64,000 bases of DNA from Nocardioides anomalus (GTDB lineage Bacteria > Actinomycetota > Actinomycetes > Propionibacteriales > Nocardioidaceae). Shown piece after piece: positions 3,392-29,013 of this stretch. A model generated the notes under the pieces. The model had not been told where the DNA came from, made no database searches, and saw only the letters and a program-made list of their open reading frames with translations. The position numbers and the translations under genes are program-made. How positions within the stretch are numbered: the first letter of the stretch is position 1; each line of letters starts with the position of its first letter. The stretch covers positions 2,294,001 through 2,358,000 of the forward strand of contig NZ_CP049257.1 in NCBI RefSeq assembly GCF_011046535.1, given 5' to 3'.

Positions 3392-3405
3392 GCAAATCGT
3401 TTGGC
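3392..3405. promoter_or_regulatory. LacI-family operator, site A
   Basis: GCAAATCGTTTGGC, identical to the sites at 12258 and (inverted) 29000. It lies in the 126-bp gap between the divergent amidohydrolase and Rieske genes and could control both. Confidence 0.75.
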
Positions 3406-3456
3406 ATCCCGACAGGGGTCAGGCGGAGGTCGGGCGCAGGAGTGACTGGAGGGCAC

Positions 3457-3807
3457 GTGGACGTACGGGTGGGGACGGTCGAGGAGGTCCGCGCCGAGGG
3501 CTGCCGGATCGTCGACGTGGGTGGTCGGCCGGTGGGGGTGATCAGCGTCGGCGAGGACTTCTACGCCGTCAGCGACCGCTGCCCGCACATGGGCGCCTCG
3601 ATGTGCACCGGGTCCCTCAGCGGCACCTTCGTCGCGGCCGCGCCGCACGAGCTGGTCTACGGCCGCGACGACCGGGTGCTGCGCTGTCCCTGGCACGGCT
3701 GGGAGTTCGACCTGGAGACCGGGCGCTCGCTGCTCGAGCCCCGGCGCTACGGGCTGCGCACCTTCGAGGTCTCCACGCGCGACGGCGACGTCGTGCTGCA
3801 CGCCTAG
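3457..3807 (+). CDS. Rieske [2Fe-2S] ferredoxin-like protein
   Basis: A 116-aa stand-alone Rieske domain. The cluster ligands are visible as CPH near residue 41 and CPWH near residue 76, giving the C-x-H / C-x2-H pattern. Between them lies an insert (TGSLSGTFVAAAPHELVYGRD) longer than in minimal Rieske ferredoxins. The start is GTG 3457 with GGAGGG just upstream. The frame is open far upstream, but that part is not protein-like. It is followed 10 bp later by fucU, which suggests one transcript. No oxygenase large subunit is next to it; the partner could be one of the dioxygenase-like proteins of the island (inference only). Confidence 0.85.
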   Translation: MDVRVGTVEEVRAEGCRIVDVGGRPVGVISVGEDFYAVSDRCPHMGASMCTGSLSGTFVAAAPHELVYGRDDRVLRCPWHGWEFDLETGRSLLEPRRYGLRTFEVSTRDGDVVLHA

Positions 3808-3817
3808 GAGGCGCGCG

Positions 3818-4243
3818 GTGCTCAAGGCGATCGACCCGCTGCTGAGCGCGGAGCTGCTCGGCCACCTGGCGGCCATGGGCCACGGCGACGCGCTGGCGCT
3901 GGTCGACCGCAACTTCCCGGCCGCCTCCACCGCGCAGCGGCTGGTGGTCCTGCCCGGGGTGGACGTCGCGACCGCGGCCCGGGCCGTGCTGACGCTCTTC
4001 CCGGTCGACACCTTCGAGGAGCCCGCCGTGCTGCGGATGGGCGCGGTCGGCGACGAGGACACCGTGCTGCCGGTGCACGCCGATCTGCAGGCCGAGGTGG
4101 ACGCCGCCGAGGGCCGGCCCGTCCCGTCGGCGGGCGTGGCGCGCTTCGCCTTCTACGAGCGCGCCCGCGCGGCGTACCTCACCGTGGCCACGACCGAGGA
4201 CCGGCCCTACGGCTGCTTCCTGCTGACCAAGGGCGTCGTCTGA
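3818..4243 (+). CDS. fucU: RbsD/FucU family sugar mutarotase
   Basis: A 141-aa cytoplasmic mutarotase interconverting alpha and beta anomers of a free sugar. The N-terminal block MLKAIDPLLSAELLGHLAAM and MGHGDALALVDRNFPA carry the conserved His and Asp of the family; the length is typical. The family uses L-fucose or ribose, and the substrate here is not decided by sequence. The GTG at 3818 has AGGAG 7 nt upstream. It follows the Rieske gene and lies just upstream of the GH10 gene, in line with a role in processing imported sugars of the island. Confidence 0.88.
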   Translation: MLKAIDPLLSAELLGHLAAMGHGDALALVDRNFPAASTAQRLVVLPGVDVATAARAVLTLFPVDTFEEPAVLRMGAVGDEDTVLPVHADLQAEVDAAEGRPVPSAGVARFAFYERARAAYLTVATTEDRPYGCFLLTKGVV

Positions 4244-4294
4244 GCCCAGATCCGCGGATCGAGGGTTGTCACGGCCGTTCCGGCCGCTTACGGT

Positions 4295-4308
4295 GTGAAT
4301 CGATTTGC
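4295..4308. promoter_or_regulatory. LacI-family operator, site B
   Basis: GTGAATCGATTTGC, with the palindromic core GAATCGATTT, lies 54 bp upstream of the GH10 start and matches the island consensus GCAAATCGWTTKGC in 12 of 14 positions. Confidence 0.65.
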
Positions 4309-4362: not shown

Positions 4363-5580
4363 ATGACCTCCGCCCCGCTCGCCCGCCGCAGCTTCCTGGC
4401 CGGCGCCACCGCCGCCGGCCTCACCGCCGGCCTCACCGCCGCACTGTCCGGCACCGCCGAGGCCGCGGTCCGCGGCTCGGCCCCGAGGCAGCGGCGCGGA
4501 CCGCACCACGAGCGCGACACCACGCCCCTGTGGCAGCAGGCCGCGGCCAAGGGCATCGTGTTCGGCTCCTCCATCGCCACCTGGCAGCTCGACGACGACT
4601 ACCAGGCGGTGCACGCCCGGGAGGCCGCGCTGCTGTGGCCCGAGGACGACCTGCTCTGGTACCAGCTCAAGCCGACGCCGAGGTCGAAGCTCGACTTCAA
4701 GACGGGCGATGAGATCTTCGCGCTCGCCGACGCGAACAAGCAGCTCAAGATCGGCGCCTTCCTGGTCTGGGACGAGGGCTTCGGCGACGGGTGGAGCGAC
4801 GACGACCTGTGGGGGCTGAACCGCAAGCAGGCCGAGAAGCTGCTCTACGGCGTGGTCACCGAGGAGGTCGCGCACTACCAGGGCCGGCTCGAGGCGTGGG
4901 TCGTGGCCAACGAGGTGACCGACCCCAACGACGCCGACCGGTTCGGCTTCCGCACCAACGTGCCGTGGTACGACACCATCGGCCGCGGGTACGTCGCGGA
5001 GTGCTTCCACCTCGCCGAGGCCGGCGACCCGGGCGCGCTGCGGGTCATCAACGAGTTCGGCTTCGAGACCGTCAACCAGTACGGCGACAAGCCCGAGCCC
5101 CGGCGCAAGGCGTTCCTCAAGGCCATCGACAAGCTGCTGGCCGACGGCGTCTCCGTGCAGGCCGCCGGCATCCAGGGCCACCTGCTGGCCGACCGCTTCG
5201 CGCAGCGCTTCCACCCCAAGGGCTACCGCGCCTTCCTGAAGGAGCTGGCCGACCGCGGCCTGCAGATCCTCATCACCGAGCTCGACGTGCTCGACGACGG
5301 GCTGCCCAAGAACATCAAGATCCGCGACCGCGGGGTGGCCGACGTCTACCGCCGCTACCTCGACGTCGTGCTCGACGAGCCGGCCGTCAAGGTGGTCAAC
5401 GCCTTCGGGCTCACCGACCGCTACACCTGGCTCGACGAGGACCAGCCGCGCGAGGACGGCGCGCACCGCCGCCCGTTGGCGTTCGACCAGAAGCTGCGGC
5501 CCAAGCGGGCCTTCGACGCGATCAGCCAGGCCTTCGCGGGCGCGCCGGTGCGCCCGCAGCTCTGGCCGCTCGCGCGCTGA
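4363..5580 (+). CDS. Secreted GH10-family glycoside hydrolase (endo-xylanase-like), Tat signal
   Basis: A 405-aa protein with a Tat leader (ARRSFLAGATAAGL, ending near AEA) and a GH10-like TIM barrel. The putative acid/base Glu184 lies in VVANEV and the nucleophile Glu306 in LITELDVLD. The usual WDVVNE reads WVVANE, and the substrate-binding KWExTEP block reads YQLKPT, so this is a divergent GH10 that may not be a plain xylanase. The start is ATG 4363 with GGAG 8 nt upstream, giving a clean signal peptide; the frame extends further up without one. Operator site B suggests LacI control. It probably releases oligosaccharides that the neighbouring ABC system imports. Confidence 0.85.
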   Translation: MTSAPLARRSFLAGATAAGLTAGLTAALSGTAEAAVRGSAPRQRRGPHHERDTTPLWQQAAAKGIVFGSSIATWQLDDDYQAVHAREAALLWPEDDLLWYQLKPTPRSKLDFKTGDEIFALADANKQLKIGAFLVWDEGFGDGWSDDDLWGLNRKQAEKLLYGVVTEEVAHYQGRLEAWVVANEVTDPNDADRFGFRTNVPWYDTIGRGYVAECFHLAEAGDPGALRVINEFGFETVNQYGDKPEPRRKAFLKAIDKLLADGVSVQAAGIQGHLLADRFAQRFHPKGYRAFLKELADRGLQILITELDVLDDGLPKNIKIRDRGVADVYRRYLDVVLDEPAVKVVNAFGLTDRYTWLDEDQPREDGAHRRPLAFDQKLRPKRAFDAISQAFAGAPVRPQLWPLAR

Positions 5581-5619: not shown

Positions 5620-5621
5620 GG

Positions 5622-6635
5622 TCAGCGGAGGGCGACGACCTCGCCGCGCTCCGCTGACCGGTATCCCGCCAGGGCCACCTCGAGGGCACGCAGCCCGTCC
5701 GCACCGCTGGCGCACGGCTCCTGGAGCTCGCCGAGCCGCACCGAGGTCACGAAGGCCGTCAGCATGGCCAGGTCGGCGTCCTCGGCGAACGACGCCTGCC
5801 GCAGTCCGCGCGGACCGCCCTCGTGCGTGCTGACCAGGCGCAGCGACTCGGCGGTGTCGGTCACGTCGAGCGAGCCCTCGGTGCCGACCAGGCGCAGGTA
5901 GAAGTCGTAGTCCCACGGGTGGTCCGCGGGCACCGACCAGCTCGGGTCGACCGAGCCGACCGCACCGCCCGTGAAGCGCAGCGAGACCACGGCGACGTCG
6001 TCGACGCCGGCCCCCCAGAGCAGCTCGCCGGCCTCGGCGGAGACCTCGGCGACCTCGAGCCCGGTGACGTGCCGGATCGCGTCGGTGACGTGGACCGAGT
6101 GGTCGATGAGCGCGCCGCCGCCGGCGGCGACGGGGTCGGTGATCCACGGTGGGTACGACGGGGGCAGCGGCGGGCGGCCCCGGTTGCCACCGACCACGCC
6201 GACGAGGTCGCCGAGCCGCCCGGAGCGGACGGCCTCCCGGGCGCGCGCCACCACCGGCACGAAGCGCGACGGGAAGGCGGTGTGCAGCTGCACGCCGGCC
6301 CGCGCGCACGCCTCGACCATGGCCTCGGCGTCCTCGAGGGTGGTGGCGAGCGGCTTCTCGCAGAGCACCGACCGTCCGTGCGCGGCGGCCAGCTCGACGT
6401 GGCCGCGGTGGTCGGCGTTCGCGCTGCACACCAGCACGGCGTCGGCCCGGGCCAGGAGCGCCTCCGGGTCCTCGAGGAACGGCACGCCGAAGTCCTGCCG
6501 GATCCAGCGTGCGTGCTCCGGGTCGGCGTCGTGGACGCCGACGAGGTCCACGTCCGGCAGGGAGGTCAGGCCGCGGGTGTAGGCCCACGCGTGGCCGGTG
6601 TGCGCGACGCCGAGGATGCCGATCCTGGTGGTCAC
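5622..6635 (-). CDS. Gfo/Idh/MocA family dehydrogenase (1 of 4)
   Basis: A 337-aa NAD(P)-dependent sugar or inositol-type oxidoreductase. The Rossmann start is RIGILGVAHTGHAWAY, the cofactor-binding EKP block is LCEKPLATT (near residue 95), and a catalytic-type histidine lies in LIDHSVHVTDAIRH. GTG 6635 overlaps the next gene's stop as GTGA and has GGGAG 6 nt upstream. It is the last gene of the operon that begins with the sugar-binding lipoprotein at 12199. Oxidation or reduction of an imported sugar at C1 or C3 is the family role; the exact substrate is not known. Confidence 0.88.
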   Translation of the reverse strand: MTTRIGILGVAHTGHAWAYTRGLTSLPDVDLVGVHDADPEHARWIRQDFGVPFLEDPEALLARADAVLVCSANADHRGHVELAAAHGRSVLCEKPLATTLEDAEAMVEACARAGVQLHTAFPSRFVPVVARAREAVRSGRLGDLVGVVGGNRGRPPLPPSYPPWITDPVAAGGGALIDHSVHVTDAIRHVTGLEVAEVSAEAGELLWGAGVDDVAVVSLRFTGGAVGSVDPSWSVPADHPWDYDFYLRLVGTEGSLDVTDTAESLRLVSTHEGGPRGLRQASFAEDADLAMLTAFVTSVRLGELQEPCASGADGLRALEVALAGYRSAERGEVVALR

Positions 6636-7633
6636 GGCTGCTCCCAGGTCGTGAGGTCGACGGTCCGGCCGGTGCGGGCGGACTCGAGGGCGCCGAGGGC
6701 GACGCGCAGGGACTCGGTGGCCTCGGCGGCGGGGACCGGCGGCGGCCCGCCGGCGCGGCAGGCCGCGAAGAAGTCGCCCAGCTCGCGGGTGAACTCCCGG
6801 TCGCCGAGCGCGTCCCACCACTCGCTGGCGCCGTCCGCCCGGTGCAGGACCCCGCTCATGAGCTGGTCGGCGTCCCAGGCCAGCCGGCCGTGCGTGCCCA
6901 CCAGCTCCGCGGACAGCCTGAAGCCCCGCGAGGCCGGGTGCGCCCAGCTGCACTCGACGTGCGCGATCGCGCCGTTCTCGTAGCGCACCGTCGCCACGGC
7001 GTACGTCGACGGGCCGGCGGCGCTGTCGGCGGCCATGCAGTGCACCCGCACGGCCGGGCTGCCGATGACCCACCCGGCGTAGTCGAAGCTGTGCACGCCC
7101 TGGTCGAGCAGCGGGCCGCCTGAGGTGGCCGGGTCGGCCAGCCAGCCCGCCTCGCTCCAGCCCGGCAGGGCCGTGGTGGTGGAGTGCGTGAGCATCCGCA
7201 GCGTGCCGATCTCGCCGGCCTCGACCAGGTCGCGGGCCGCGCGGTGGTCGGGCGCGTAGCGGGCCACCTGGCCGATCGACAGCAGCCCGGGCGCGGCCTC
7301 CGCGGCCGCGAGCACCCGCCGTGCCTCGGCCAGGGTCCGGGTGACCGGCTTCTCGCACAGCACGTGCCGGCCGGCCTCGAGCGCGGCGACGGTGGCGTCG
7401 GCGTGCGAGGTCGGCGGCGTGCAGACGTCGACCACGTCGACGCCGAGCGCGAGCAGCTCCTCGAGCGTGGCCACCGCCTGCGCGCCGTGCTCGCCGGCCA
7501 GCCGCTCCGCCTTGCCCGGCACCGGGTCGGCCACCGCGACCAGCCGGACCCCGGGCGCGTCGCGGTAGGCGTGTGCGTGGACGCCGGCGATCATGCCGGC
7601 CCCGAGGAGGCCGACGGTCAGCTCGGGGCTCAC
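6632..7633 (-). CDS. Gfo/Idh/MocA family dehydrogenase (2 of 4)
   Basis: A 333-aa oxidoreductase with Rossmann motif VGLLGAGMIAGVHAHAY, EKP block LCEKPVTRT, and active-site-like LLDQGVHSFDYAGW (a DxGxH pattern). It overlaps the previous gene by GTGA at 6632-6635, and its own GTG (7633) overlaps the stop of the cupin gene. The pair of adjacent Gfo/Idh enzymes in one operon resembles two-step keto-sugar pathways, in which one enzyme oxidises a hydroxyl and another reduces the processed product (family knowledge; the assignment here is inference). Confidence 0.87.
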   Translation of the reverse strand: MSPELTVGLLGAGMIAGVHAHAYRDAPGVRLVAVADPVPGKAERLAGEHGAQAVATLEELLALGVDVVDVCTPPTSHADATVAALEAGRHVLCEKPVTRTLAEARRVLAAAEAAPGLLSIGQVARYAPDHRAARDLVEAGEIGTLRMLTHSTTTALPGWSEAGWLADPATSGGPLLDQGVHSFDYAGWVIGSPAVRVHCMAADSAAGPSTYAVATVRYENGAIAHVECSWAHPASRGFRLSAELVGTHGRLAWDADQLMSGVLHRADGASEWWDALGDREFTRELGDFFAACRAGGPPPVPAAEATESLRVALGALESARTGRTVDLTTWEQP

Positions 7634-8820
7634 CGGCGCTCGATGAGGGGGACGTCGGGGTGCAGGTCGGGGCCGAAGAACAGGAACGCCACGAGCTCCT
7701 CGGCGCCGGTGCTGCGCACCTCGTGCTCGGCCACGGCGGCGTCGTGGGTGACGACGAGCTCGTCGCGACCCGGCTCGCCGCCGGTGACCTCCGTGCCCGC
7801 CCAGGTCCCCGAGCCGGTCCACACGAAGACGCTGTAGACGCCGGGCTCGCGCAGCCGGTGCGTGCCTCCAGGGGGCAGGACCAGCCGCTTCCCGGCGTAC
7901 TTGTCGGTGTTGTAGAAGACCCAGCTCTCCTCGCCGTCGCCGGAGCTGCCGCTCACCGCGCGCGGGGCGAGGTGGCGGTGCTCGTAGAACCACGGGTCGC
8001 CGTTGGTCTCCCAGTCCACGAAGCGCAGCGGGAAGCGCTCGCCCTCGGCCGCGCGGTCCTCGGGGCGCACGTCCTTGAACAGCAGGTCCTTGGAGATGAT
8101 CCGGCCGGCGTTGAGGGCCTGGAACATGGCCAGCACGTCGGAGTCCTCCTGCAGCTCCAGGGTCAATGCGGTGCCGGGCGCGTGCAGCACCCCGGACGGC
8201 ACGTGGAACCCCTCGCCCACGACCTGCAGCTCGGCGCGGGCGTGGCGCAGGATGAGGTCGCTGTCCCAGTCGACCAGGTAGGGCAGCAGCACCTCGTGCG
8301 CCTGCTGCTCGGCGACCCACGGGTGCACGCCGAAGAACGTCTCCGGGTGCGCGCCGAGCTCGACCCCGGGCAGGAAGTGGTAGGACTCGTCCTTGGGCCG
8401 GCAGCCCACGAGCGCGGCGTACTCCGCCGGCGGGTGGATGTGGTAGGGCAGCCGGTGGCCGTAGTCGAAGATCTTGGCCAGCCGGCCCAACCCGGCCGGG
8501 TGGCCGGCGGCGTACTCCGCGCCGAGGACGGCCTCCGGGTCGGCCGCCACCGCGTCGCGCAGCAGCAGCCGCTCGCCGCTCTCGCCGACCACGTGGCTGA
8601 GCCCCTCGTCCTCGGGCCCGACCCGGTTGTCGGCCCGGGTCGTGGAGGCCAGCCAGCGCTCGCAGATCGCGCCGCGCTCCCCCACGTCGTAGGCGTCCTC
8701 GGGCAGGCCGAGCCGGCGACCGGGCGGCAGGAAGTCGCGCGCCACCCAGGCCGGGTCGCAGCGCAGCACCCCGTGGCCGTCCGCGAGCAGCCGACCCAGC
8801 GTCTCGCGGGCCGCGCTCAC
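7630..8820 (-). CDS. Class I phosphomannose-isomerase-like cupin protein
   Basis: A 396-aa protein with a cupin fold. HIHPPAEYAAL (near residue 128) and the downstream FHVPSGVLHAPGTALTLELQ block resemble the zinc-binding segments of class I mannose-6-phosphate isomerases. The family interconverts mannose-6-P and fructose-6-P, but the sequence is divergent and lies between ABC permeases and dehydrogenases, so another aldose/ketose isomerisation is possible. GTG 8820 is preceded by GAGGG; it starts 18 nt after the permease stop and overlaps the next gene by 4 nt. Confidence 0.75.
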   Translation of the reverse strand: MSAARETLGRLLADGHGVLRCDPAWVARDFLPPGRRLGLPEDAYDVGERGAICERWLASTTRADNRVGPEDEGLSHVVGESGERLLLRDAVAADPEAVLGAEYAAGHPAGLGRLAKIFDYGHRLPYHIHPPAEYAALVGCRPKDESYHFLPGVELGAHPETFFGVHPWVAEQQAHEVLLPYLVDWDSDLILRHARAELQVVGEGFHVPSGVLHAPGTALTLELQEDSDVLAMFQALNAGRIISKDLLFKDVRPEDRAAEGERFPLRFVDWETNGDPWFYEHRHLAPRAVSGSSGDGEESWVFYNTDKYAGKRLVLPPGGTHRLREPGVYSVFVWTGSGTWAGTEVTGGEPGRDELVVTHDAAVAEHEVRSTGAEELVAFLFFGPDLHPDVPLIERR

Positions 8821-8838
8821 CCCTCGCTCACCCCGCGC

Positions 8839-9822
8839 TCACCCCTTGACCCCGGTCACCGCGATGCCCTGCACGAACTGCCGCTGGAAGATGATGAACA
8901 CGATGATCATCGGCAAGGTGGCGATGACCGAGCCGGCGAACAGCAGGGTCCAGGACGTGCGGTTCTGCACCACGAACAGGGCCAAGCCGACCGGTGCGGT
9001 GATCTTCTCCGGACTCGACATGATGATGAGCGGCCAGAAGAAGTCCTCCCAGGCGCCCTGGAAGGTGAAGATCGCGTTGGCCGCCAGTGCCGGCACGCAC
9101 AGCGGGAGCACCACGCTCCAGAAGATCCGGAACTCGCTGGCACCGTCGATGCGCGCGGCCTCGAGCAGCTGGTCGGGGATCGACATCATGTACTGGCGCA
9201 GCAGGAAGATGCCGAAGGCCGAGACCACGCCGGGCATGATCAGCCCGAAGTAGGAGTCCAGCCAGCCGTGGCCGCCGTTGCCCAGCCAGTCGTTGCCGCC
9301 GAAGAACGGGATGTGCTGGATGATCAGGTAGTTCGGGATCAGCGTGACCTGGCCGGGCACCATCATCGTGCCGAGGAAGGCCACGAAGATGACGTTGCGG
9401 CCCGGGAAGTTGCGCTTGGCGAAGGTGTAGGCGCACAGGGCGTTGAAGAAGGTCTGCAGCACGGTGATCGAGATGGCCACGAACGCGCTGTTCACGAACC
9501 ACCGCCAGTCGCCGTGACCCTGGCCCTGCTGGGCCTTGGTCAGGGTGCCGACGTTGAGGAACCCCTTGAAGCCGGCCAGCGTCGGGTGCTCGGGGATCCA
9601 GTGCGGGGTCGAGGAGAAGATCTCCCCCATGGGCTGGAACGCCGCGCTCACCAGCCACGCGAACGGTGCGAGGAACAGGATGGCCATCGGGGCCAGGACG
9701 AGGTAGGTCAACAGCTTCTGGCGCAGCGAGAACTGGTTGTTGCCCTCGCGGGGCTTCTTGGCCGGCCGCGGGACGACCGCGACCGCGGGGACCCCGGGGG
9801 TCTCGTCGACGACGCCGCTCAC
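8839..9822 (-). CDS. Sugar ABC transporter permease (MalG type)
   Basis: A 327-aa inner-membrane permease of the carbohydrate uptake CUT1 family with six predicted helices. The EAA loop contacting the ATPase reads LLEAARIDGASEFRIFWSVV (near residue 220). GTG 9822 overlaps the stop of the upstream permease (GTGA), so the two are made together. The N-terminal 35 residues are a proline-rich cytoplasmic tail. It works with the partner permease (9819-10799) and the lipoprotein (10871-12199). No ATP-binding subunit is present in the window. Confidence 0.93.
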   Translation of the reverse strand: MSGVVDETPGVPAVAVVPRPAKKPREGNNQFSLRQKLLTYLVLAPMAILFLAPFAWLVSAAFQPMGEIFSSTPHWIPEHPTLAGFKGFLNVGTLTKAQQGQGHGDWRWFVNSAFVAISITVLQTFFNALCAYTFAKRNFPGRNVIFVAFLGTMMVPGQVTLIPNYLIIQHIPFFGGNDWLGNGGHGWLDSYFGLIMPGVVSAFGIFLLRQYMMSIPDQLLEAARIDGASEFRIFWSVVLPLCVPALAANAIFTFQGAWEDFFWPLIIMSSPEKITAPVGLALFVVQNRTSWTLLFAGSVIATLPMIIVFIIFQRQFVQGIAVTGVKG

Positions 9823-10799
9823 GACAGGTCCGCCCGTCGGGCCAGGCGCAGCTGGAACGCGGTGAAGAAGAGCAGGATCACGAAGAGCGCGAAGGCCAGG
9901 GTGCTGGCGTAGCCCATGTCGTAGTACTTGAAGGCCCAGAGGTACATGTAGTAGACCATCGTGGTCGTCTTGTTGACCGGCCCGCCGTTGGTCATCACGA
10001 AGATCTGGGTGAAGACCTGCAGCGAGCTGATGATGCCGAGCACCAGCAGGAACACCGTGGTCGGGCGCAGCATCGGGATCGTGATGTGCCACAGCCGCCG
10101 CAGCGGCCCGGCGCCGTCCATGCGCGCGGACTCGTAGAGGTCCTGCGGGATGGCCTGGAGCCCGGCGAGGTAGACCACCATCGAGAAGCCCACACCGCTC
10201 CACACCGACATCAAGATGACCGCCGGCATGGCGAGGTTCTTGTCCGAGAGCCACAGCAGTGGCTGGTCGATGATGTGGCCCTTGGTCAGGTAGTAGTTGA
10301 AGAGCCCGTAGTCACCGTTGTAGAGCCACTTCCAGAGGATGGCCGAGACCACGAACGGCGTGACCACCGGCAGGTAGAACGCGGTGCGGAAGACCGCCCG
10401 CATGCGGAACGGCAGGTTGAGCAGCAGCGCGAGGACCAGCCCGATGGCCATCGAGGCCGGCACCGAGACACCGCTGAAGTAGGCCGTGTTCAGCACCGAC
10501 TCGCGGAACCGCTCGTCGCCGACCATGTCGCGGTAGTTGTCGAGCCCGACGAACGGCTTCTCCGGCTCGATGATGCTCCACCGGTGGAAGGTCAGGTAGA
10601 TCGCGAAGATCACCGCGACCAGCGTGAAGACGGAGAAGACCAGCACACCCGGGAGGATGAACAGGTACGCCGAGCGCTCCCGCCAGAGTCGACCCCCCAG
10701 GCCGGGCCGGTTGTCGTGCGGGACCTCCGACTGGATGCGGCGCTGCGCCCGGGCGCGCGCCCACCTGGAGTCCCTGGCCTGGGCTTGCGCCGTCGCCAA
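9819..10799 (-). CDS. Sugar ABC transporter permease (MalF type)
   Basis: A 326-aa inner-membrane permease, CUT1 family, with an EAA loop (DLYESARMDGAGPLRRLWHI) and six helices starting at SAYLFILPGVLVFSVFTL. No ATG is available in frame. TTG 10799 is chosen because AGGGGAG lies 6 nt upstream. The gene is 71 bp downstream of the binding-protein gene and overlaps the second permease by 4 nt. Together they form the channel for the sugar delivered by the lipoprotein. Confidence 0.92.
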   Translation of the reverse strand: MATAQAQARDSRWARARAQRRIQSEVPHDNRPGLGGRLWRERSAYLFILPGVLVFSVFTLVAVIFAIYLTFHRWSIIEPEKPFVGLDNYRDMVGDERFRESVLNTAYFSGVSVPASMAIGLVLALLLNLPFRMRAVFRTAFYLPVVTPFVVSAILWKWLYNGDYGLFNYYLTKGHIIDQPLLWLSDKNLAMPAVILMSVWSGVGFSMVVYLAGLQAIPQDLYESARMDGAGPLRRLWHITIPMLRPTTVFLLVLGIISSLQVFTQIFVMTNGGPVNKTTTMVYYMYLWAFKYYDMGYASTLAFALFVILLFFTAFQLRLARRADLS

Positions 10800-10870
10800 T
10801 GCCTTCTCCCCTTCGCTCCGGCCGCCGCCCGGGCACGGGGCCTGGGCGGCGGCGGGTGTGTGTCGGTCGG

Positions 10871-12199: not shown

Positions 12200-12257
12200 C
12201 AACACCCTGCTCTCGGTCGGGATCGGCACCGGTTCGAGGGCCATCGCGCACGATCGT

Positions 12258-21566: not shown

Positions 21567-22754
21567 TCAGACCTTGGTCCACGCGGCGCCGGCGTCCGAG
21601 GAGCGCTCGACGGCGTCCAGGACGCGCTGGACCTGCAGGCCGTCGGCGAACGACGGGGTGGGCGCCGTGCCGGCCGCGACGTCGCGGACGAAGTCGGCGA
21701 TCTCGTGGACGAAGGTGTGCTCGTAGCCGAGCCCGTGACCCGGTGGCCACCACGCGGCGGCGTACGGGTGCTCGGCCTCGGTGACCAGGATCCGGCGGAA
21801 GCCGGCGTCGGCGGCCGGGGCGGTGGCGTCGTGCACGTGGAGCTCGTTCATCGCCTCGAAGTCGAAGGCGATGCTGCCGGCCGAGCCGTTGAGCTCGATG
21901 CGCATGGCGTTCTTGCGTCCCGTGGCGAAGCGGGTGGCCTCGTACGTCGCCAGCGCGCCGCCGTCGGTGCGACCGGAGAACACCGCGGCGTCGTCGACGC
22001 TCACCTCGCCCAGCTCGGTCCCGCCGCTCGCGCTCAGCCCGGAGGCCGCCTCGGGCAGCGGGCGGCGCTCGACGAAGCGGGTCAGGTGCCCGGCCACCTC
22101 GGTGAGACGCTGGCCGGTGAGGAACTGCGACAGGTCGACGATGTGGGCGCCGATGTCGCCGAGCGCGCCGGAGCCGGCCTTGTCCTTCTGCAGCCGCCAG
22201 ACCAGCGGGAACTCCGGGTCCACGATCCAGTCCTGGAGGTACTGCGCGCGGACGTGGCGCAGCTCGCCGACGACGCCCCGCTCGACGAGCTGCCGGGCGT
22301 AGGCCAGGGCGGGGGTGCGCCGGTAGTTGAAGCCGACCATCGACAGCACGCCGCGGCCCTCGGCCTCCTCGGCGACCTGGGTCATCTGCTCGGCCTCGGC
22401 CACGGTGTTGGCCAGCGGCTTCTCGCAGAGCACGTGCTTGCCGGCCTCGAGGGCGGCGACGGCGATCTCGGCGTGGGAGTCCCCGGGCGTGCAGATGTCG
22501 ACGACCTGGACGTCGTCGCGCTCGAGCACGTCGCGCCAGTCCGTGGTCCACCCGGCCCAGCCGAGCTTCTCGGCCGCGTCCCGGGTGGCCGACTCGGCGC
22601 GGCCGCACACGACGTTCATCGCCGGGCGCAGCGGGAGGTCGAAGAACCGGTGGGCGTTGCGCCAGGCCTGGGAGTGGGCGGCACCCATGAACGCGTAGCC
22701 GATCATGGCCACGCCGAGGGGCCGGGCGTCGTCGCCGGTGCTGGTCACGCCCAT
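21567..22754 (-). CDS. Gfo/Idh/MocA family dehydrogenase (4 of 4)
   Basis: A 395-aa oxidoreductase with AMIGYAFMGAAHSQAWRN at the nucleotide site, LCEKPLANT as EKP block and GALGDIGAHIVDLSQF as the catalytic DxGxH helix. ATG 22754 has GAGGAGG 5 nt upstream, and operator site E lies 17 bp further up. It opens the operon running down to 15629 (two dehydrogenases, PhyH, isomerase, glycosidase-like protein, MDR dehydrogenase). This length and the GHGLGYEH segment occur in sugar dehydrogenases annotated as inositol- or levoglucosan-type, but I cannot fix the substrate. Confidence 0.89.
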   Translation of the reverse strand: MGVTSTGDDARPLGVAMIGYAFMGAAHSQAWRNAHRFFDLPLRPAMNVVCGRAESATRDAAEKLGWAGWTTDWRDVLERDDVQVVDICTPGDSHAEIAVAALEAGKHVLCEKPLANTVAEAEQMTQVAEEAEGRGVLSMVGFNYRRTPALAYARQLVERGVVGELRHVRAQYLQDWIVDPEFPLVWRLQKDKAGSGALGDIGAHIVDLSQFLTGQRLTEVAGHLTRFVERRPLPEAASGLSASGGTELGEVSVDDAAVFSGRTDGGALATYEATRFATGRKNAMRIELNGSAGSIAFDFEAMNELHVHDATAPAADAGFRRILVTEAEHPYAAAWWPPGHGLGYEHTFVHEIADFVRDVAAGTAPTPSFADGLQVQRVLDAVERSSDAGAAWTKV

Positions 22755-22770: not shown

Positions 22771-22784
22771 GCAAATCGGTTTGC
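22771..22784. promoter_or_regulatory. LacI-family operator, site E
   Basis: GCAAATCGGTTTGC lies 17 bp upstream of the ATG of the Gfo/Idh gene at 22754. Its outer GCAAA/TTTGC arms are perfectly symmetric. Confidence 0.75.
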
Positions 22785-22826: not shown

Positions 22827-23765
22827 TCAGTCGCGGTGGTGCAGCGGCTGGACCCCGAGCTGGGCGGCCCGGGCGAACGACGCCTGGGCGCCGGGCCGGG
22901 CGACGGCGTACGTCCCCGCGCGCACGCCGATCCGCACCGCCTCCACGAGGTCGGTGCCGGCGCTGAGGGCGGCGGCCAGCGCGCCGGTGAACGCGTCGCC
23001 GGCGCCGGTGGTGTCGACCACCTCGGTGGCCTCGGCGGGCACGTGCTCCACGCTGCCGCCGTCGCCGCCGCTGCCGAGCACCGCGCCGTCGGCGCCGACG
23101 GTGACCACCGCCGAGCGGCAGCGACCGGCGAGCTCGGTGACCGCGGCGCGGGCGTCGACGACGCCGCGCACCTCGCGCCCGAGCAGCTGCCCGGCCTCGG
23201 TCTCGTTGACCACGAGCGGGTCGCAGAGGGCGAGCACGTCCTCGGGCAGCGGCCGGTACGGCGCGAGGTTGACCACCGCGCGCGTGCCGGCCTCCCCCGC
23301 GGCCCGGACGGCCGCCTCGAGCGCGTCCTGGGGGATCTCGGCCTGGGTGACGACGACACCGGTCGGGGCCAGGAGCTCGCGCACCGCCCGGGAGGTCGTG
23401 GCCGGCTCGAGGCGCTCGTTGGCGCCCGGCGCCACCACGATGGCGTTCTCGCCGGCCGCGTCGAGCAGGACGAAGGCCATGCCGGTGCGGGTGCTGGTGG
23501 CCACCAGCTCGGTGGTGTCCACCCACGCCTCGGCCAGGTCCTTGGCCAGCGCCCGGCCGTCGTCGTCGCGACCGACCCGGGCCACGATCGCGGTCCGCGC
23601 GCCGAGCAGGCTGGCCGCCACCGCCTGGTTGCCGCCCTTGCCGCCCGAGCCGACGCTGGCCTCGCCGCCGAGCACGGTCTCGCCGGGCGCGGGCAGGGTG
23701 TCGACCCGGCACACGTAGTCGCGGTTGACCGAGCCGACGACGACCACGTCGACCTGCCTGCTCAC
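22827..23765 (-). CDS. rbsK: Ribokinase (PfkB family)
   Basis: A 312-aa carbohydrate kinase that phosphorylates ribose (or a close sugar) with ATP. N-terminal VVVVGSVNRDYVCRVDTLP and SGGKGGNQAVAASLLGA are ribokinase signature 1. The catalytic base and anion hole are in VVDTTGAGDAFTGALAAAL (PfkB signature 2). GTG 23765 overlaps the nucleoside-hydrolase stop by GTGA. With that hydrolase upstream, the logical route is nucleoside to free ribose to ribose-5-phosphate. It is the last gene of the transcript beginning at the ThuA-like gene under operator F. Confidence 0.93.
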   Translation of the reverse strand: MSRQVDVVVVGSVNRDYVCRVDTLPAPGETVLGGEASVGSGGKGGNQAVAASLLGARTAIVARVGRDDDGRALAKDLAEAWVDTTELVATSTRTGMAFVLLDAAGENAIVVAPGANERLEPATTSRAVRELLAPTGVVVTQAEIPQDALEAAVRAAGEAGTRAVVNLAPYRPLPEDVLALCDPLVVNETEAGQLLGREVRGVVDARAAVTELAGRCRSAVVTVGADGAVLGSGGDGGSVEHVPAEATEVVDTTGAGDAFTGALAAALSAGTDLVEAVRIGVRAGTYAVARPGAQASFARAAQLGVQPLHHRD

Positions 23766-24673
23766 GGGAGCCCGGCCAGCCTCTCCACGAACAGCTGCTG
23801 GAACGTCTCCGCGTCGACCTCGGTGGCGATCCGGCAGTTCGGTGCGGGCGGGTCCTGCCACATGAGCAGGTCGGCCACCGCCACGCCGCGGGTGAAGCGG
23901 CCCTCGGTCTCCACGTCCACGTGCGCCGCGCGCCAGGTGCACAGCTCGGGGCGGGTCACCACCGCGACGGCGAGCGGGTCGTGCAGCGCGCAGCTGCCCT
24001 GCTCGATCTCCTCGTGCGGCTTCACCCGCTCCTGGAAGGCGATCCAACCGAGCGTGTGCTCGGCGGCGAGCCGGCCGAAGGCGCCGCTGTCGGCCATCCG
24101 CTCGGCGTCCGCCCGGGTCAGCCGGACCCGGCGGGTCACGTCGAGCCCGACCAGCCGCAGCGGCAGGCCGCTCTGCAGCACCGCCTGCGCGGCCTCGGGG
24201 TCACACCAGAAGTTGTACTCCCCCGGCATCGCCGCCACGTTGGTCTGCTCGAGGTAGACCCCGCCCATCACCACGACCTCGCGCACCGCGGTGGCCACCC
24301 GCGGCTCGAGCTCGAGGGCCCGCGCGATGTTGCTGAGCGGCCCGATGGTGACGAGCGTGAGCTCGCCCGGCTCGGCCAGGACCCGGCGCACGATCTCGTG
24401 CGCGGCGTCGTCGTCGGCCGGGAGGCCCTGGACGACGGGTACGTCGGTGCGCCCGAGCACCTCGAGCAGCGCGTGGGTGAGCCGGGTCGAGGTCTGCACG
24501 TCACTGTTGCCGCCGACGGTGGTGACCACCTCGACCCGCAGGTCCGGGTCGGCCAGCGCGAGGGCGAGGGCGAAGCCGTCGTCGATGTCCGAGCCCGGCG
24601 CCCCCATGGCCAGGTCGGTGTCGAGGACGATCCTCGTGGGCCCGGCCGTCGCCTCGGTCAGCGGCTGGCCCAC
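23762..24673 (-). CDS. Inosine-uridine-type nucleoside N-ribohydrolase
   Basis: About 303 aa, nucleoside hydrolase family: cleaves ribonucleosides to base and ribose using a bound calcium. The N-terminal calcium motif is DTDLAMGAPGSDIDDGFAL, longer than the minimal DTDxDDxxA. VTIGPLSNIA, VVMGGVYLEQTN, EYNFWCDPEAAQAVL and LHDPLAVA are the other conserved blocks. GTG 24673 overlaps the ThuA-like gene by 16 nt; a CTG at 24661 is a less likely start. It is coupled to ribokinase downstream, which supports a ribose-salvage step inside the LacI-controlled island. Confidence 0.92.
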   Translation of the reverse strand: MGQPLTEATAGPTRIVLDTDLAMGAPGSDIDDGFALALALADPDLRVEVVTTVGGNSDVQTSTRLTHALLEVLGRTDVPVVQGLPADDDAAHEIVRRVLAEPGELTLVTIGPLSNIARALELEPRVATAVREVVVMGGVYLEQTNVAAMPGEYNFWCDPEAAQAVLQSGLPLRLVGLDVTRRVRLTRADAERMADSGAFGRLAAEHTLGWIAFQERVKPHEEIEQGSCALHDPLAVAVVTRPELCTWRAAHVDVETEGRFTRGVAVADLLMWQDPPAPNCRIATEVDAETFQQLFVERLAGLP

Positions 24674-25329
24674 AGCAGCCCGCGCTCGGTGAGCGTGCGC
24701 ACGTCGGGGTGGTCGAGGTCCTCGAGCTTGTGGCCGAGGGTCGAGACGAAGACCCGGCCCTGGCCCCAGCGCCGCGTCCACACGGCCGGGCAGGTGACGC
24801 TCTCGTGCCAGGGCGTGCCCTCGGCGGGCTCGAAGGTCGTGGTGGCCAGCACCTCGTTGAGCTCGTCGGTGAGCACCCAGTACTGCTCGGTGTTGAGCGA
24901 CCAGGTCGGGTTCAGCCCGGCCACGAGCTCGTGGTCGGCCTGCTCCGGGAGCACCTGCACGTCGTACTCCACGAAGCCGCCGGGGTGCGCGGCCCACTGG
25001 CCGCCGGTCAGGTGCAGGTAGTCCGGGGAGCCGCGGAAGGAGTCGCAGACCCCGCCGTGCCAGCCGGCCAGTCCGGTGCCGTTGGCCACCGCCGCGGACA
25101 GACCCAGGACCGCCGCGTCGCTGGCCTCGCCCTGGGTGAAGCACTGCACGACCAGGTCCGTGGCGCTCAGCTTGTCGGCGTCGGCGTAGACCTCGGGGTC
25201 GTCGTGCACCTCGACCTGGAACCCCTGCTCCTCGAGGAACGGGATGAACCGGTCGGTGGCCTCGACCGGGCTGTGGCCCTCCCAGCCGCCCCGGACGATC
25301 AGGGCCTGACGGGTGCGGGTGGTGTCCAT
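24658..25329 (-). CDS. ThuA-like domain protein
   Basis: A 223-aa protein of the trehalose-utilisation ThuA group (class I glutamine-amidotransferase-like fold). ALIVRGGWEGHSPVEATDRF opens the fold. GLAGWHGGVCDSFRGSPDY is the conserved GWHGG core, and TPWHESVTCPAVWTRRWGQGRV closes it. In characterised cases ThuA acts with a Gfo/Idh dehydrogenase (ThuB) on 3-keto disaccharides. ATG 25329 has GAGGAGG just upstream, and operator F lies 37 bp away. It heads the ThuA, nucleoside hydrolase, ribokinase transcript and diverges from the S9 peptidase. Confidence 0.88.
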   Translation of the reverse strand: MDTTRTRQALIVRGGWEGHSPVEATDRFIPFLEEQGFQVEVHDDPEVYADADKLSATDLVVQCFTQGEASDAAVLGLSAAVANGTGLAGWHGGVCDSFRGSPDYLHLTGGQWAAHPGGFVEYDVQVLPEQADHELVAGLNPTWSLNTEQYWVLTDELNEVLATTTFEPAEGTPWHESVTCPAVWTRRWGQGRVFVSTLGHKLEDLDHPDVRTLTERGLLWASR

Positions 25330-25365: not shown

Positions 25366-25379
25366 CGAAATCGATTTGC
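25366..25379. promoter_or_regulatory. LacI-family operator, site F
   Basis: CGAAATCGATTTGC, with the perfect palindrome AAATCGATTT, lies in the 97-bp divergent gap between the ThuA-like and S9 peptidase genes and can control both. Confidence 0.72.
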
Positions 25380-25426: not shown

Positions 25427-27382
25427 ATGACCCCCACCGGCCTGGCCGACCCGCCCGCGGAGACGCTGGCCTGGGTGGCCGCGCACCAGCGTCGGAGCCG
25501 GGAGACCGGCCCCGGCGGGCTGGCCGACGTCTCGCAGGTCGCCCCGCACCCCGCCCGGGACGTCGTCGCCTGCACCCTGGGGCTGCGGTCCTGCGCCGAC
25601 GAGGACGTGCGGCGCCAGGTCGCGCTCGTCGCCGACGGCGCACCGCCACGCCCCCTGCTGCCCGACGCCGCCTCGTCGAGCTGGCCGGTGTGGTCCCCGG
25701 ACGGCACCCGGCTCTGCGTGGTGGCGGCGTACGGCGACGAGCCGGCCACCGCGGTCGTCGTCGACCCCGACGCCGGGGAGGTGGCCCGGGCCGCCGGGCT
25801 CGACGGGACGGTCGAGGCCGCGCGCTTCTCGCCGGACGGCGCGTCCCTGGCCCTCGTGGTGGCCCAGCCGGGCGCGGAGGTCTCCGACACCTGGGGCTCG
25901 GGCTCGGTGGGCGACGCGCGCACCGAGTCCTGGCAGCCCGCGGTGCTGCCGTTCACCGGCGGTCGCCGCCAGCTCGTGGTGTGGGACGTCGCGTCCGGCG
26001 CCACCACCACGCTGAGCGACCTCAACGTCTGGGAGGCCGACTGGTACGACGACGGCCTGGTCGCGCTGGTGACCGAGGGCGCGGGCGAGGGCGCCTGGTA
26101 CACCGCCCGGCTGGTCACCGTCTCCCGCGACGGCGAGGTCGCCGAGCTGCACCGCGGCCCGGACCAGCTGGCCCACCCGCACACCTCGCCGTCCGGGCGC
26201 GCGTGGTCGGTGCTGAGCGGCTTCGCCAGCGACCGCGACCTGCTCGCGGGGGAGCTCGTGGTCGGCCGTCCGGGCTCGGACGGCGTCGCGGTCGACACCC
26301 TCGACGTGCACGTGACCGACCAGCGCTGGCTCGACGAGGCCCGCATCCTGTTCATCGGCCACCGCCGCCTGGACACCGTCGTCGGGACCGTCGACGTCGA
26401 GACCGGCGCGGCCTCCGAGCTGTGGTGCGGACGGGAGACGACCGGGCTCTACCAGCCCGACCTGGGTGGCCTCGACCACGAGGGCCGGCCGGTGCTGGCC
26501 CTCGAGCGCAGCGACGTGCCGCCCCGGCTCGTCCGGCTGGGCGCCTCGGGCCCGGAGGTGCTGCTGGACACCGCCGGCCCGGGCACCGCGCACGTCGTGG
26601 CCACCACCGGTCGCACCACCGAGTTGCGCTGGACCTCCCGTGACGGGCTCGAGGTCGAGGGCCTGGTCACGGTGCCGGACGCCGACGGCCCGCACCCGCT
26701 CGTGCTGCACGTGCACGGCGGCCCGGTCGGCGCCTACCAGGACGGCTGGATCGGCCGGGACGCGCACACCTCGCTGCTCGTCGCTCGCGGCTACGCCGTG
26801 TTCCGGCCCAACCCGCGCGGCAGCGCCGGCCGCGGCGCGGCGTACGCCGAGGCGGTGCGCCACGACATGGGCGGGCTCGACGTGGACGACGTGCTGACCG
26901 GCGTCGAGCGGCTGGTCGCCGACGGCGTGGCGGACCCCGACCGGCTGGCCATCACCGGGCAGAGCTACGGCGGGTTCATGGCCGCGTGGGTGCCGTGCCT
27001 GACCGACGTGTTCCGGGCGTCGGTGGCCCGCTCACCGGTGACGGACTGGCGCTCGCAACACCTGACCAGCAACATCGCGGAGTTCGACGCGATCTTCCTC
27101 GACGGCGAGCCCTTCGACCCGGACTCGCAGTACCAGACCCGCAACCCGCTCACCCACCACGCCCGCTGCCGCACGCCGACGCTGCTCACCGCCGGCGCCC
27201 GCGACCTGGCCACCCCGGCCAGCCAGGCCGAGCAGTTCCACCACGCGCTGGTCGAGCAGGGCGTGGACTCGGCGCTCGCGATCTACCCCGAGGAGGGCCA
27301 CGGCGTGCAGGCGCTGCCGGCGCTGGCCGACCAGTGCGCGCGGATGGTCGCGTGGTTCGACCGCTACCTGCTCACCCCATGA
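25427..27382 (+). CDS. S9-family (prolyl-oligopeptidase-like) serine peptidase/esterase
   Basis: A 651-aa cytoplasmic alpha/beta-hydrolase with an N-terminal beta-propeller (about 1-400) and a catalytic domain (about 410-651). The nucleophile Ser513 lies in GQSYGGFM, the Asp in AGARDLATP and the His in PEEGHGV. HVHGGPVGAYQDGW is the oxyanion-loop region. ATG 25427 has AAGGAG 7 nt upstream. It shares operator F with the ThuA-like gene. A peptidase is unexpected in a sugar island. The same fold includes acyl-peptide hydrolases and carbohydrate esterases, so deacylation of a decorated sugar is an alternative. Its stop overlaps the FAD oxidoreductase gene tail-to-tail by 11 bp. Confidence 0.9.
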   Translation: MTPTGLADPPAETLAWVAAHQRRSRETGPGGLADVSQVAPHPARDVVACTLGLRSCADEDVRRQVALVADGAPPRPLLPDAASSSWPVWSPDGTRLCVVAAYGDEPATAVVVDPDAGEVARAAGLDGTVEAARFSPDGASLALVVAQPGAEVSDTWGSGSVGDARTESWQPAVLPFTGGRRQLVVWDVASGATTTLSDLNVWEADWYDDGLVALVTEGAGEGAWYTARLVTVSRDGEVAELHRGPDQLAHPHTSPSGRAWSVLSGFASDRDLLAGELVVGRPGSDGVAVDTLDVHVTDQRWLDEARILFIGHRRLDTVVGTVDVETGAASELWCGRETTGLYQPDLGGLDHEGRPVLALERSDVPPRLVRLGASGPEVLLDTAGPGTAHVVATTGRTTELRWTSRDGLEVEGLVTVPDADGPHPLVLHVHGGPVGAYQDGWIGRDAHTSLLVARGYAVFRPNPRGSAGRGAAYAEAVRHDMGGLDVDDVLTGVERLVADGVADPDRLAITGQSYGGFMAAWVPCLTDVFRASVARSPVTDWRSQHLTSNIAEFDAIFLDGEPFDPDSQYQTRNPLTHHARCRTPTLLTAGARDLATPASQAEQFHHALVEQGVDSALAIYPEEGHGVQALPALADQCARMVAWFDRYLLTP

Positions 27383-28649
27383 CGCTGGTCGGCGCGTCCG
27401 GGTCGACCGTGCGCAGCCGGGAGTACGTCGCCAGCTCGATCGGCTGACCGGTCCGCGGCGCCGTCCACACCAGCGGGTCGCGGTCGTGGTCGTGGCCGGC
27501 CTCGACCGCCTCCACGAGCGCGGCCACCAGCTGGCCGACGACCGGGGCGTTCTTGAACTGGTTGCCGCTCGTGCCCATGGCCACGTAGAAGCCCGGCCGG
27601 CCGGTGCGGTCGTAGACCGGCGTCCAGTCGCTCGCCGCGTCGTACACCCCGACCACGCCGCTCGGCCGCCCTGGCACGCTGAGCCCCGGGATCCGCCGGG
27701 CCGCGCGCAGGCTCTGCGCCTCGTAGGTCGCCGCGCTCACCCGCGGGTCCGCCTCGTCGGGGTCGGCCAACCACTCCAGCGGATCGCACTCCGGCTCCAT
27801 CCCCCCGACCAGCAGCCCGCCCGCGGCCGGGCGCAGGTAGGTGCCGAGGTCGGGGTCGGCCAGCGCCAACGGGAGTCCCTCTGCGGTCGGCAGCCAGTGC
27901 ACCTCCTGGCGCAGCGGCCGCGAGGTGACCGTGAACTCCGCGCCCACCCCGGCCAGCGCGTTGACCGCGCTCGACCACGGGCCGGCCGCGTTGATGACCA
28001 CGTCGGCCTCGATCGCCTGCCCCTGGGCCACCACCCACCACCGCCGGCTCCCGCCCTCCTCGACGGCGCTGACCTCGTGCCGCAGGAGGTACGTCGCCCC
28101 CCGGGCGCGCGCCGCCTCGGCCAGGTCGTGCGCGGCGAGCGCCGCGTCGTCGACGTACCCCGCGTCCGGCGTCCACGTCCCGCCCAGCTCACCGTGCGCG
28201 TCGGCGAAGAACGCCTCACTGTCCACCGGCGCCGGCGGCCCGAACGCGCCGGCGTCGAGGCGCCGGGCCCCGACCTGCGCGGGCGTCCACCGCTCCCACG
28301 GCACGCCCACCGCGTCGAAGTCCCCCGTGATCGCCGCCGACTCCCCCGGCTCCGCCTCCAGGACCAGCATCCCCGTCCGCACGAACCGCGCCAGCCCCTC
28401 GGCGTCGTCCCGCCCCAGGTGCGCCGCCCAGTCGGCCCACACCTGCCGCGCCTCCCACGCCAGCGCCACCGCCGTGCGCGTCGAGTAGTGGAACCGCACG
28501 ATCGCGCTCGACGCGCTCGTCGACCCGTGCCCCACCCCACCGGCCTTGTCGACGACCACGACCTCACGCCCGGCCCGCGCCAGCTCCAGCGAGATCGCCG
28601 CCCCGATCACGCCGGCCCCGACCACCACGACGTCCGCGGTCCTCGTCAC
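27372..28649 (-). CDS. FAD-dependent oxidoreductase (DAO family)
   Basis: A 425-aa flavoprotein of the glycine/D-amino-acid oxidase type. The FAD motif is DVVVVGAGVIGAAISLELA, followed by VVVVDKAGGVGHGSTSASSA. The substrate-site histidine may be in FHYSTRTA, and VAMGTSGNQFKNAPVVG is the C-terminal flavin-binding segment. Start GTG 28649 has AGGGTG 8 nt upstream; GTG 28658 is possible and would overlap an upstream frameshifted reading frame. It probably oxidises an N-methyl amino acid, amine or sugar-amine; the substrate is not determined. Confidence 0.86.
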   Translation of the reverse strand: MTRTADVVVVGAGVIGAAISLELARAGREVVVVDKAGGVGHGSTSASSAIVRFHYSTRTAVALAWEARQVWADWAAHLGRDDAEGLARFVRTGMLVLEAEPGESAAITGDFDAVGVPWERWTPAQVGARRLDAGAFGPPAPVDSEAFFADAHGELGGTWTPDAGYVDDAALAAHDLAEAARARGATYLLRHEVSAVEEGGSRRWWVVAQGQAIEADVVINAAGPWSSAVNALAGVGAEFTVTSRPLRQEVHWLPTAEGLPLALADPDLGTYLRPAAGGLLVGGMEPECDPLEWLADPDEADPRVSAATYEAQSLRAARRIPGLSVPGRPSGVVGVYDAASDWTPVYDRTGRPGFYVAMGTSGNQFKNAPVVGQLVAALVEAVEAGHDHDRDPLVWTAPRTGQPIELATYSRLRTVDPDAPTSVMG

Positions 28650-28654
28650 GGCGG

Positions 28655-28881
28655 TCACCCTAGAACGACGTCCATGAGCGGCCCGGCGTGCTCGAGGTCG
28701 CACGCCACCTGCGAGTCCTCCCAGCGGACGTCGGCGGAGGCCGCCCCGACCAGCAGGGCCGGACCACCAGCGCCCAGCCGTGCTCCGGGTCGCGCTCCGC
28801 CGCCGAGTGCACGGACGTGTCCCTCAGCAGACCGCGGGTGGCGGTGGCGCCTCGCTCGACGCGATCCGGTCGCCACGACAT
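28655..28881 (-). pseudogene. Possible frameshifted small gene upstream of the FAD oxidoreductase
   Basis: Two minus-strand frames join into one plausible protein. From ATG 28881 one reads MSWRPDRVERGATATRG and then SAAERDPEHGWALVV. After a shift near 28755 the other frame reads SADVRWEDSQVACDLEHAG and ends at a TGA overlapping GTG 28658. The end-to-start overlap copies the habit of real genes here. I do not recognise the family. It may be a decayed gene, a sequencing indel or chance. Confidence 0.25.
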
Positions 28882-28999
28882 GGCGCGTCGGTCCGCTCGA
28901 GCCGGTCCGACGACCTCGACCGCCGCCGGCACACTCGCGCCGAGCAGCCCCGGCGCATCCGGGTGCGAGGACAGCGAGTGGCGCACCGACCGGGGTGAT

Positions 29000-29013
29000 G
29001 CCAAACGATTTGC
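29000..29013. promoter_or_regulatory. LacI-family operator, site G
   Basis: GCCAAACGATTTGC is the exact inverse of sites A and C. It lies 66 bp upstream of the aldo/keto reductase gene. Confidence 0.75.

Follow-up and report, generated by a model that had tools for sequence, protein, structure and literature searches.

Why would an amidohydrolase, a Rieske protein and an S9 peptidase share what look like the operators of a sugar regulator? The question is raised by a 64,000 nt stretch of the Nocardioides anomalus genome (NZ_CP049257.1, positions 2,294,001 to 2,358,000; hereafter "the window", with positions counted from its first base), in which an initial annotation had placed seven matching LacI-type operators within approximately 26 kb, proposing that they define a single regulon which ties these functionally odd genes to a sugar system. 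Our comparisons of the sequence with those of its relatives indicate that the seven sites very probably belong to a local, autoregulated LacI regulon of an ordinary kind, and that two of the odd genes form a predicted oxygenase system.

All seven palindromes were located where they had been annotated, beginning at 3392, 4295, 12258, 13231, 22771, 25366 and 29000, with zero to two mismatches to GCAAATCGWTTKGC in a pattern scan of the window. As had also been claimed, three of them are the same sequence (those at 3392, 12258 and 29000), with the copy at 29000 inverted. Every site is intergenic, in a region (2-30 kb) of which approximately 8% is intergenic by the gene bounds drawn in our analysis, and the gaps between operators and start codons measure 15 to 66 bp, confirming the upper limit of the 17-66 bp range given previously but not the lower. 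Allowing up to three mismatches, the window yields 15 strand-matches against 3.4 expected, a total reached by none of 100 shuffles, and the sole match beyond the seven operators lies at 47735, with three mismatches. A scan of the whole genome (one contig of 5,120,341 bases), which the initial annotation had proposed as a check, recovers six of the seven operators and no other match at zero or one mismatch to GCAAATCGNTTNGC; the claim that no site exists outside 3-29 kb is therefore true of the window and, at this stringency, of the genome. The remaining operator, at 25366, has two mismatches to GCAAATCGNTTNGC, the level at which background starts: at up to two mismatches the genome contains 25 + 27 strand-matches, no more than the 26 + 30 of the reversed control. 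Consequently, loose matching is without power, the evidence lies in matches that are exact or nearly so and in the way they cluster, and weaker operators elsewhere in the genome cannot be judged. A further near-palindrome (GCGAAGCGCTTGGC or GCGAACCGCTTGGC) is present at genome positions 639243, 3425484, 3865979 and 5090226, and may serve a different LacI regulator as its operator.

A matrix trained on the palindromes that precede lacI in 15 orthologous loci, and without the window sequence, gives its seven highest scores in the 64 kb to exactly the seven operators (26.8 to 13.1; the next score is 11.3). The criteria for choosing its training sites, namely a CG centre, palindromic symmetry and A+T richness, were set with the annotated motif already known, and one of the 15 sites (that of L049) is wrong, yet was retained. 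Among 60 order-1 Markov control sequences of 64 kb, five contain one site scoring at least 13.1, with a maximum of 16.9, and the weakest operator, at 4295, is for this reason not convincing alone. Chance as the origin of the seven sites is excluded by the shuffles, the genome scan and the ortholog-trained matrix.

The presumed binder of the operators is the LacI-family regulator encoded at 13263..14315 on the plus strand (PF00356 and Peripla_BP_3). Its orthologs occupy 16 loci at 79-82% identity (L042-L057; hereafter the close loci), from Nocardioides, other Nocardioidaceae, Nonomuraea, Microbispora, Actinomadura and Jiangella, and nine loci at 60-63% (L058-L066); 49 further loci (L067-L115) contain other LacI relatives at 25-55% identity, many of them partial. 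An operator of at least 20 bits is present in 24 of the 25 ortholog loci, versus none of the 49, and in L059, a 5.5 kb piece, the best operator scores 19.5 bits. In three Micromonospora loci the operator centre is shifted from ATCG towards AACG. The LacI recognition helix, TTVSHV(L/M)SGKR, is found in all 25 ortholog loci, and PTTVSHVLSGKR is fully alike in 23 of them.

Operator position is conserved as well. Operator 3 (12258..12271), which precedes the ABC operon, is found in 16/16 close loci, and operator 4 (13231..13244), in the divergent gap between the AraC and LacI genes, is matched upstream of lacI in the same 16, albeit weakly in L051 (14.0 bits). Operator 5 (22771..22784), at the head of the Gfo/PhyH/GH42-like operon, recurs in all 14 close loci that extend so far; operator 6 (25366..25379), in the divergent gap between the ThuA and S9 genes, is present upstream of ThuA in all 11 close loci with ThuA and its upstream DNA; and operator 2 (4295..4308), upstream of the GH10 gene and the weakest of the seven, is kept in all nine that include DNA upstream of GH10. 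Operator 1 (3392..3405), in the divergent gap between the amidohydrolase and Rieske genes, is found in each of the 12 ortholog loci having this gap, whereas operator 7 (29000..29013), upstream of an aldo/keto reductase (AKR) gene, was seen in this genome alone. Since the ortholog-trained matrix recovers the seven operators, the close loci carry operators in the same places, and none of the 49 loci of other LacI relatives has one of at least 20 bits, the annotated single LacI regulon is strongly supported.

A point against this reading comes from one genome (G049), in which a 62% identical LacI adjoins a relative of the oxidoreductase GfoB (described below) with no other member of the set, and with no operator within 20 kb. 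Among 36 genomes of the same genus, the best match to the LacI protein reaches E 7.5e-51 and 35% identity, and LacI at 61-62% identity was found in 2 of 57 relatives, a patchy spread that hints at horizontal transfer; the LacI tree leaves the place of the window protein within its clade unsettled. An alternative binder, namely another LacI paralog or mainly the AraC protein, might be considered, given that the genome holds five matches to this LacI (itself included), and that the AraC gene shares the lacI gap and is kept in 15/16 close loci. However, the operator tracks this LacI clade rather than its other relatives, L054 keeps operators without an AraC relative in the locus, and the palindrome is centred on CG, as is usual for LacI operators, most of which are even palindromes with CG at the centre (PMC4052901). 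We consider it highly improbable that either alternative is the principal binder.

The DNA upstream of the ABC operon is consistent with repression by this LacI. A candidate -35 element, TTGACA (12308..12313, minus strand), is kept in 25/25 loci, the window included, and a candidate -10 element, GATGCT (12284-12289, minus strand), in 14/25. In the window, operator 3 starts 36 bases after TTGACA, and across the loci this distance is 31-39 bases, except in L046, which possesses two TTGACA elements and whose operator starts 17 bases after the nearer. The operator would therefore lie at or just past the expected transcription start, which fits a repressor that blocks initiation.

The amidohydrolase gene beside operator 1 (2179..3330, minus strand; PF04909) appears to encode an amidohydrolase-related dinuclear oxygenase (ARO). 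Its best matches in the PDB are 8sm7 (E 1.5e-90), 8sm6 (E 1.2e-67) and 8sm9 (E 6.5e-58), which are ARO structures (PMC10811679), and it also matches the AibH2 chain (E 1.5e-56). AibH2 binds its metals through D25, H27, H211, E265, D337 and H340, with D342 as a second-sphere Asp (PMC10401708). In an alignment to AibH2, the window protein keeps all six dinuclear ligands (D24, H26, H215, E273, D346 and H349), plus D351 for D342, and these seven positions are kept in 12/12 aligned ARO rows, the row of L116 being excluded from the count. The divergent gene encodes a Rieske ferredoxin (3457..3807, plus strand; PF00355, CxH...CxxH), the predicted electron donor. Because the two form a recognisable, if predicted, oxygenase system, the functional oddity of this pair is partly explained. 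Should the amidohydrolase instead be a non-oxidative decarboxylase or hydrolase, with the Rieske protein serving some other process, it would resemble the characterised PF04909 enzymes, which are more commonly one-zinc and non-redox (PMC10401708), and PF04909 decarboxylases do match the window protein, although more weakly than the ARO structures. The retention of every dinuclear ligand and of the second-sphere Asp, the rank of the ARO structures, and the divergent Rieske gene sharing one operator all make this an improbable explanation. At a threshold of E 1e-60, the genome contains no second ARO-like gene. Pairs of ARO-like genes arranged in tandem, as in AibH1H2, were observed in other genomes (G042:C1:2479217-2481174, G271:C1:368803-370802 and G412:C239:261-2297).

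How firmly the ARO and Rieske genes belong to the regulon can be judged from their distribution. ARO orthologs at 79-85% identity are present in 13 of the 14 genomes searched from the group with 79-82% identical LacI proteins. The fourteenth (G067, locus L053) retains a 32-residue ARO remnant at 69% identity on the lacI-cluster contig (G067:C30:110856-110951), which suggests ARO gene loss. We also scanned the genomes of 19 relatives for exact operator matches and, among the matches listed, these sit on the contig of the lacI cluster in all but two genomes. In one of these (G060), two operators on a second contig may reflect a contig break. In the other (G064), an ARO-Rieske-RbsD-GH10 block is located in the middle of a separate 353 kb contig, no closer than 160 kb to either end, with operators in both gaps, and if the assembly is right this would constitute linkage-independent support for the membership of ARO and Rieske. 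A further exact match to the operator pattern in G064 is found on a third contig, outside known regulon genes (G064:C12:31412-31425).

The S9 peptidase/esterase-like protein (25427..27382, plus strand) and the AKR (29080..30066, plus strand) appear to be accessory members. Gene content was compared across 27 ortholog loci (16 close loci and 11 with LacI proteins at 60-63% identity), with matches defined by 48% identity over at least 30% of length. Neither protein is matched in any of the 27, nor are DAO, ADH2, FGGY kinase and FAD monooxygenase, and many of these loci end soon past ThuA. No S9 gene occurs in the 2-12 kb beyond ThuA in L043, L047, L048, L056 and L143. AKR relatives were looked for in 21 genomes; among the matches listed, those at 54-61% identity lie in at least 10 places on contigs other than that of the lacI cluster or, in two single-contig genomes, megabases away. 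The ties of S9 and AKR to the regulon consequently rest on operators in this genome alone, and the conserved partner of operator 25366 is ThuA, leaving the S9 tie weak. Thus, of the odd genes initially linked to the sugar system, the amidohydrolase and Rieske genes are retained, with an operator kept in their gap even on the separate G064 contig, whereas the S9 gene is not retained with any firmness.

Several of these absences weigh against the wider membership. The ARO-Rieske pair is missing from 11/11 loci of the 60-63% group, and in seven whole genomes of this group the best ARO match is 46% identical, and so the pair is not part of the pathway core. Together with the absence of S9 and AKR described above, this might suggest that the regulon is the conserved core alone, and that ARO-Rieske, S9 and AKR are mere neighbours whose operators are chance matches or relics. 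Against such a restricted regulon stand the invariable operator of the ARO/Rieske gap, its recurrence away from the lacI cluster in G064, and the AKR operator, which is an exact match in a genome that has no exact match outside the cluster. We therefore regard the restricted regulon as unlikely and continue with a regulon that includes the ARO and Rieske genes.

The other genes of the cluster give an indication of the pathway. Downstream of the Rieske gene lie genes for an RbsD/FucU family protein of the sugar mutarotase type (3818..4243, plus strand; 5/16 close loci) and, from a family match and alignment, a GH10-family protein with a twin-arginine-like N-terminus and an altered subsite (4363..5580, plus strand). 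The catalytic glutamates of the latter, E184 and E306, align to those in the NE and TE of XynB and are kept in 13/13 rows; equally constant are a Leu and an Asp, which stand in place of the subsite Lys (before W) and His (LVWH) of the aligned xylanases. Because both are replaced, the protein is not classed as a xylanase, and xylan was rejected as the obvious substrate. The ABC operon, on the minus strand, encodes an extracellular solute-binding protein (10871..12200; family match), ABC sugar permeases 1 (9819..10800) and 2 (8839..9800), a conserved 396-aa protein (7630..8820) with no Pfam match and a C-terminal part that is cupin-like in a low-confidence model, and the Gfo/Idh/MocA oxidoreductases B (6632..7600) and A (5622..6634), the starts of the permeases and of these two oxidoreductases being approximate. 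The AraC-type regulator is encoded at 12364..13215 (minus strand).

A second minus-strand operon comprises oxidoreductase D (21567..22754; 8/16 close loci), oxidoreductase C, or GfoB (20444..21520), whose best solved relatives are DgpA, a PhyH-type Fe/2-oxoglutarate dioxygenase (19576..20325; family match), an AP_endonuc_2-type sugar isomerase family protein related, by its PDB match, to 2-hydroxy-3-keto-glucal hydratase (18662..19648), a GH42-like protein with barrel and trimerisation domain (16570..18630), and a zinc-type alcohol/polyol dehydrogenase (15629..16573; family match). The GH42-like assignment derives from a Pfam score of 26.2 bits against a cut-off of 25.8 and from Foldseek on a low-confidence model; since the structure predictions are weak (mean pLDDT 51.6 and 58.3 for the cupin-like and GH42-like proteins, respectively), Foldseek results are leads only. 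The third minus-strand unit encodes a ThuA-like protein (24658..25329; 13/16 close loci), a nucleoside hydrolase family protein (23762..24661; 13/16) and a PfkB/ribokinase-like kinase (22827..23765; 6/16). Between lacI and the dehydrogenase gene, the window has 1.3 kb (14329-15628) with a partial extra PhyH-like open reading frame of 217 aa, versus a gap of less than 0.1 kb in 12/15 close loci. Beyond the cluster, window positions 40322-42409 encode a protein of 695 aa that contains SdrD B-like and carboxypeptidase-regulatory-like repeats.

From the operators and their conservation, the gene content and the ARO metal ligands, we infer binding, repression, an inducer, a pathway and its substrate as follows. 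Without inducer, LacI would bind GCAAAWCGWTTTGC-type palindromes and block the start of transcription of up to ten units: ARO, Rieske-RbsD, GH10, the ABC-cupin-Gfo operon, AraC, lacI itself, the Gfo-Gfo-PhyH-isomerase-GH42-like-dehydrogenase operon, ThuA-nucleoside hydrolase-kinase, to which S9 and AKR would be added in this species. Uptake by the ABC transporter would supply a glycoside or oligosaccharide, some of which the secreted GH10 protein may have released, and a derivative of this import would act as the inducer. Intracellular sugar chemistry of oxidation, elimination, hydration and reduction would fall to the Gfo/Idh dehydrogenases, the AP_endonuc-type isomerase/hydratase, ThuA and the dehydrogenase, while a modified sugar or aglycone would be the target of the two O2-dependent enzymes (ARO with its Rieske ferredoxin, and PhyH), which would hydroxylate or dealkylate it. 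Such oxidative glycoside catabolism is a tentative reading, to which we assign somewhat less than an even chance. It is weakened by the alignment of GfoB to DgpA over residues 1-154 alone (E 2e-18), by the weak match of the AP_endonuc_2 protein to the hydratase 8ro4 (E 4.5e-9), above which 2zds ranks (E 5e-11), and by the patchiness of RbsD, the kinase and oxidoreductase D among the ortholog loci.

A regulon for nucleoside utilisation, in which the nucleoside hydrolase, RbsD and the ribokinase-like kinase free and phosphorylate ribose, is a further candidate, as all three families are present, the hydrolase is common in the close loci, and some LacI groups control nucleoside use (PMC4052901). 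It would, however, leave the GH, ThuA, Gfo and PhyH genes unexplained, and the kinase and RbsD are kept in few close loci. Moreover, the nucleoside hydrolase is present in 1/11 more distant loci, with four others (L060-L062 and L066) having just a 30-33% relative. A pure nucleoside regulon was rejected on gene content across the ortholog loci, and we hold a nucleoside function to be rather unlikely overall.

Are AROs found in sugar loci elsewhere? Of 396 genomes sampled evenly across the phylum, 14 (N. anomalus included) contain an ARO match at E 1e-60 or better. We compared seven distant ARO neighbourhoods, a sample without a control set in which five (L163, L164, L165, L168 and L169) were judged by eye from sequence beginnings, and two of the seven are sugar loci. 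The ARO of L166 has as neighbours a sugar ABC operon and a GHL6 protein, the latter sharing 23% identity with the window GH42-like protein over 396 aa. In L167, it shares a locus with a GH127 beta-L-arabinofuranosidase, a sugar ABC transporter, an AraA-type isomerase, a class II aldolase and an FGGY kinase. Next after the ARO-Rieske pair of L167 come a molybdopterin-type oxidoreductase and a sulfatase, all of them adjoining the arabinose locus (6005-10762). In G064, an alpha-L-arabinofuranosidase adjoins the ARO. These neighbourhoods hint at pentosides, in a small sample lacking a control set. L163, L165, L168 and L169 do not resemble sugar loci, and L164 is a 5 kb piece; the closest relative among the seven (G108, 65%, L163), whose neighbours read as CoA-transferase and branched-chain-type ABC genes, speaks against a link between AROs and sugars. 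Because two distant AROs sit in sugar loci, we suggest, as a possibility that we think more likely wrong than right, that the window ARO is a carbohydrate-pathway monooxygenase which, with PhyH, acts on a modified pentoside or glycoside by oxidative stripping or hydroxylation, and that inducible sugar catabolism is a recurrent natural role of oxygenases with an amidohydrolase fold and a dinuclear (perhaps Mn/Fe) centre. Searches of an open-access literature library returned no paper tying AROs to sugar pathways, and searches on the combined gene terms of the cluster likewise returned none.

The kind of regulon described here is itself already known, indeed textbook, and its interest is that it provides a setting for an ARO, a type of enzyme for which few natural substrates are known. 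PMC10401708 counts 555 AibH2-like proteins and describes them as uncharacterised, and for four candidate AROs the natural substrates are, according to PMC10811679, not readily inferable from genomic data. A conserved LacI regulon would provide one ARO clade with a defined pathway, an inducible promoter and an importer, and inducer and substrate should therefore be directly screenable.

With respect to known systems, nearly 90% of the LacI regulators studied in PMC4052901 are local sugar regulators, and over three-fourths of the local ones are autoregulated. As characterised in that study, such regulons share with the window a CG-centred even palindrome, autoregulation, an ABC transporter with catabolic genes, and operators near start codons; the window differs in its up to ten units, its two O2-dependent enzymes and a substrate that is not assignable. 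Operons for 3-keto-glycosides, as outlined in PMC10628242 (e.g. A. tumefaciens GlycDH/OGE and the PUE strain), proceed by oxidation, elimination, hydration and reduction, and resemble the window in combining Gfo/Idh dehydrogenases with an AP_endonuc-type sugar isomerase family protein, whereas the window has one AP_endonuc-type protein and adds PhyH, ARO, GH42-like, cupin-like and nucleoside hydrolase proteins. Finally, the window ARO resembles AibH1H2, SfbO and PtmU3, as these are presented in PMC10401708, PMC10811679 and PMC7782822, in its six ligands, its second-sphere Asp and its adjacent small Rieske protein. Unlike those systems, it has no second ARO-like partner at the threshold given above, and it stands in a LacI-controlled, sugar-type regulon, divergent from its ferredoxin gene.

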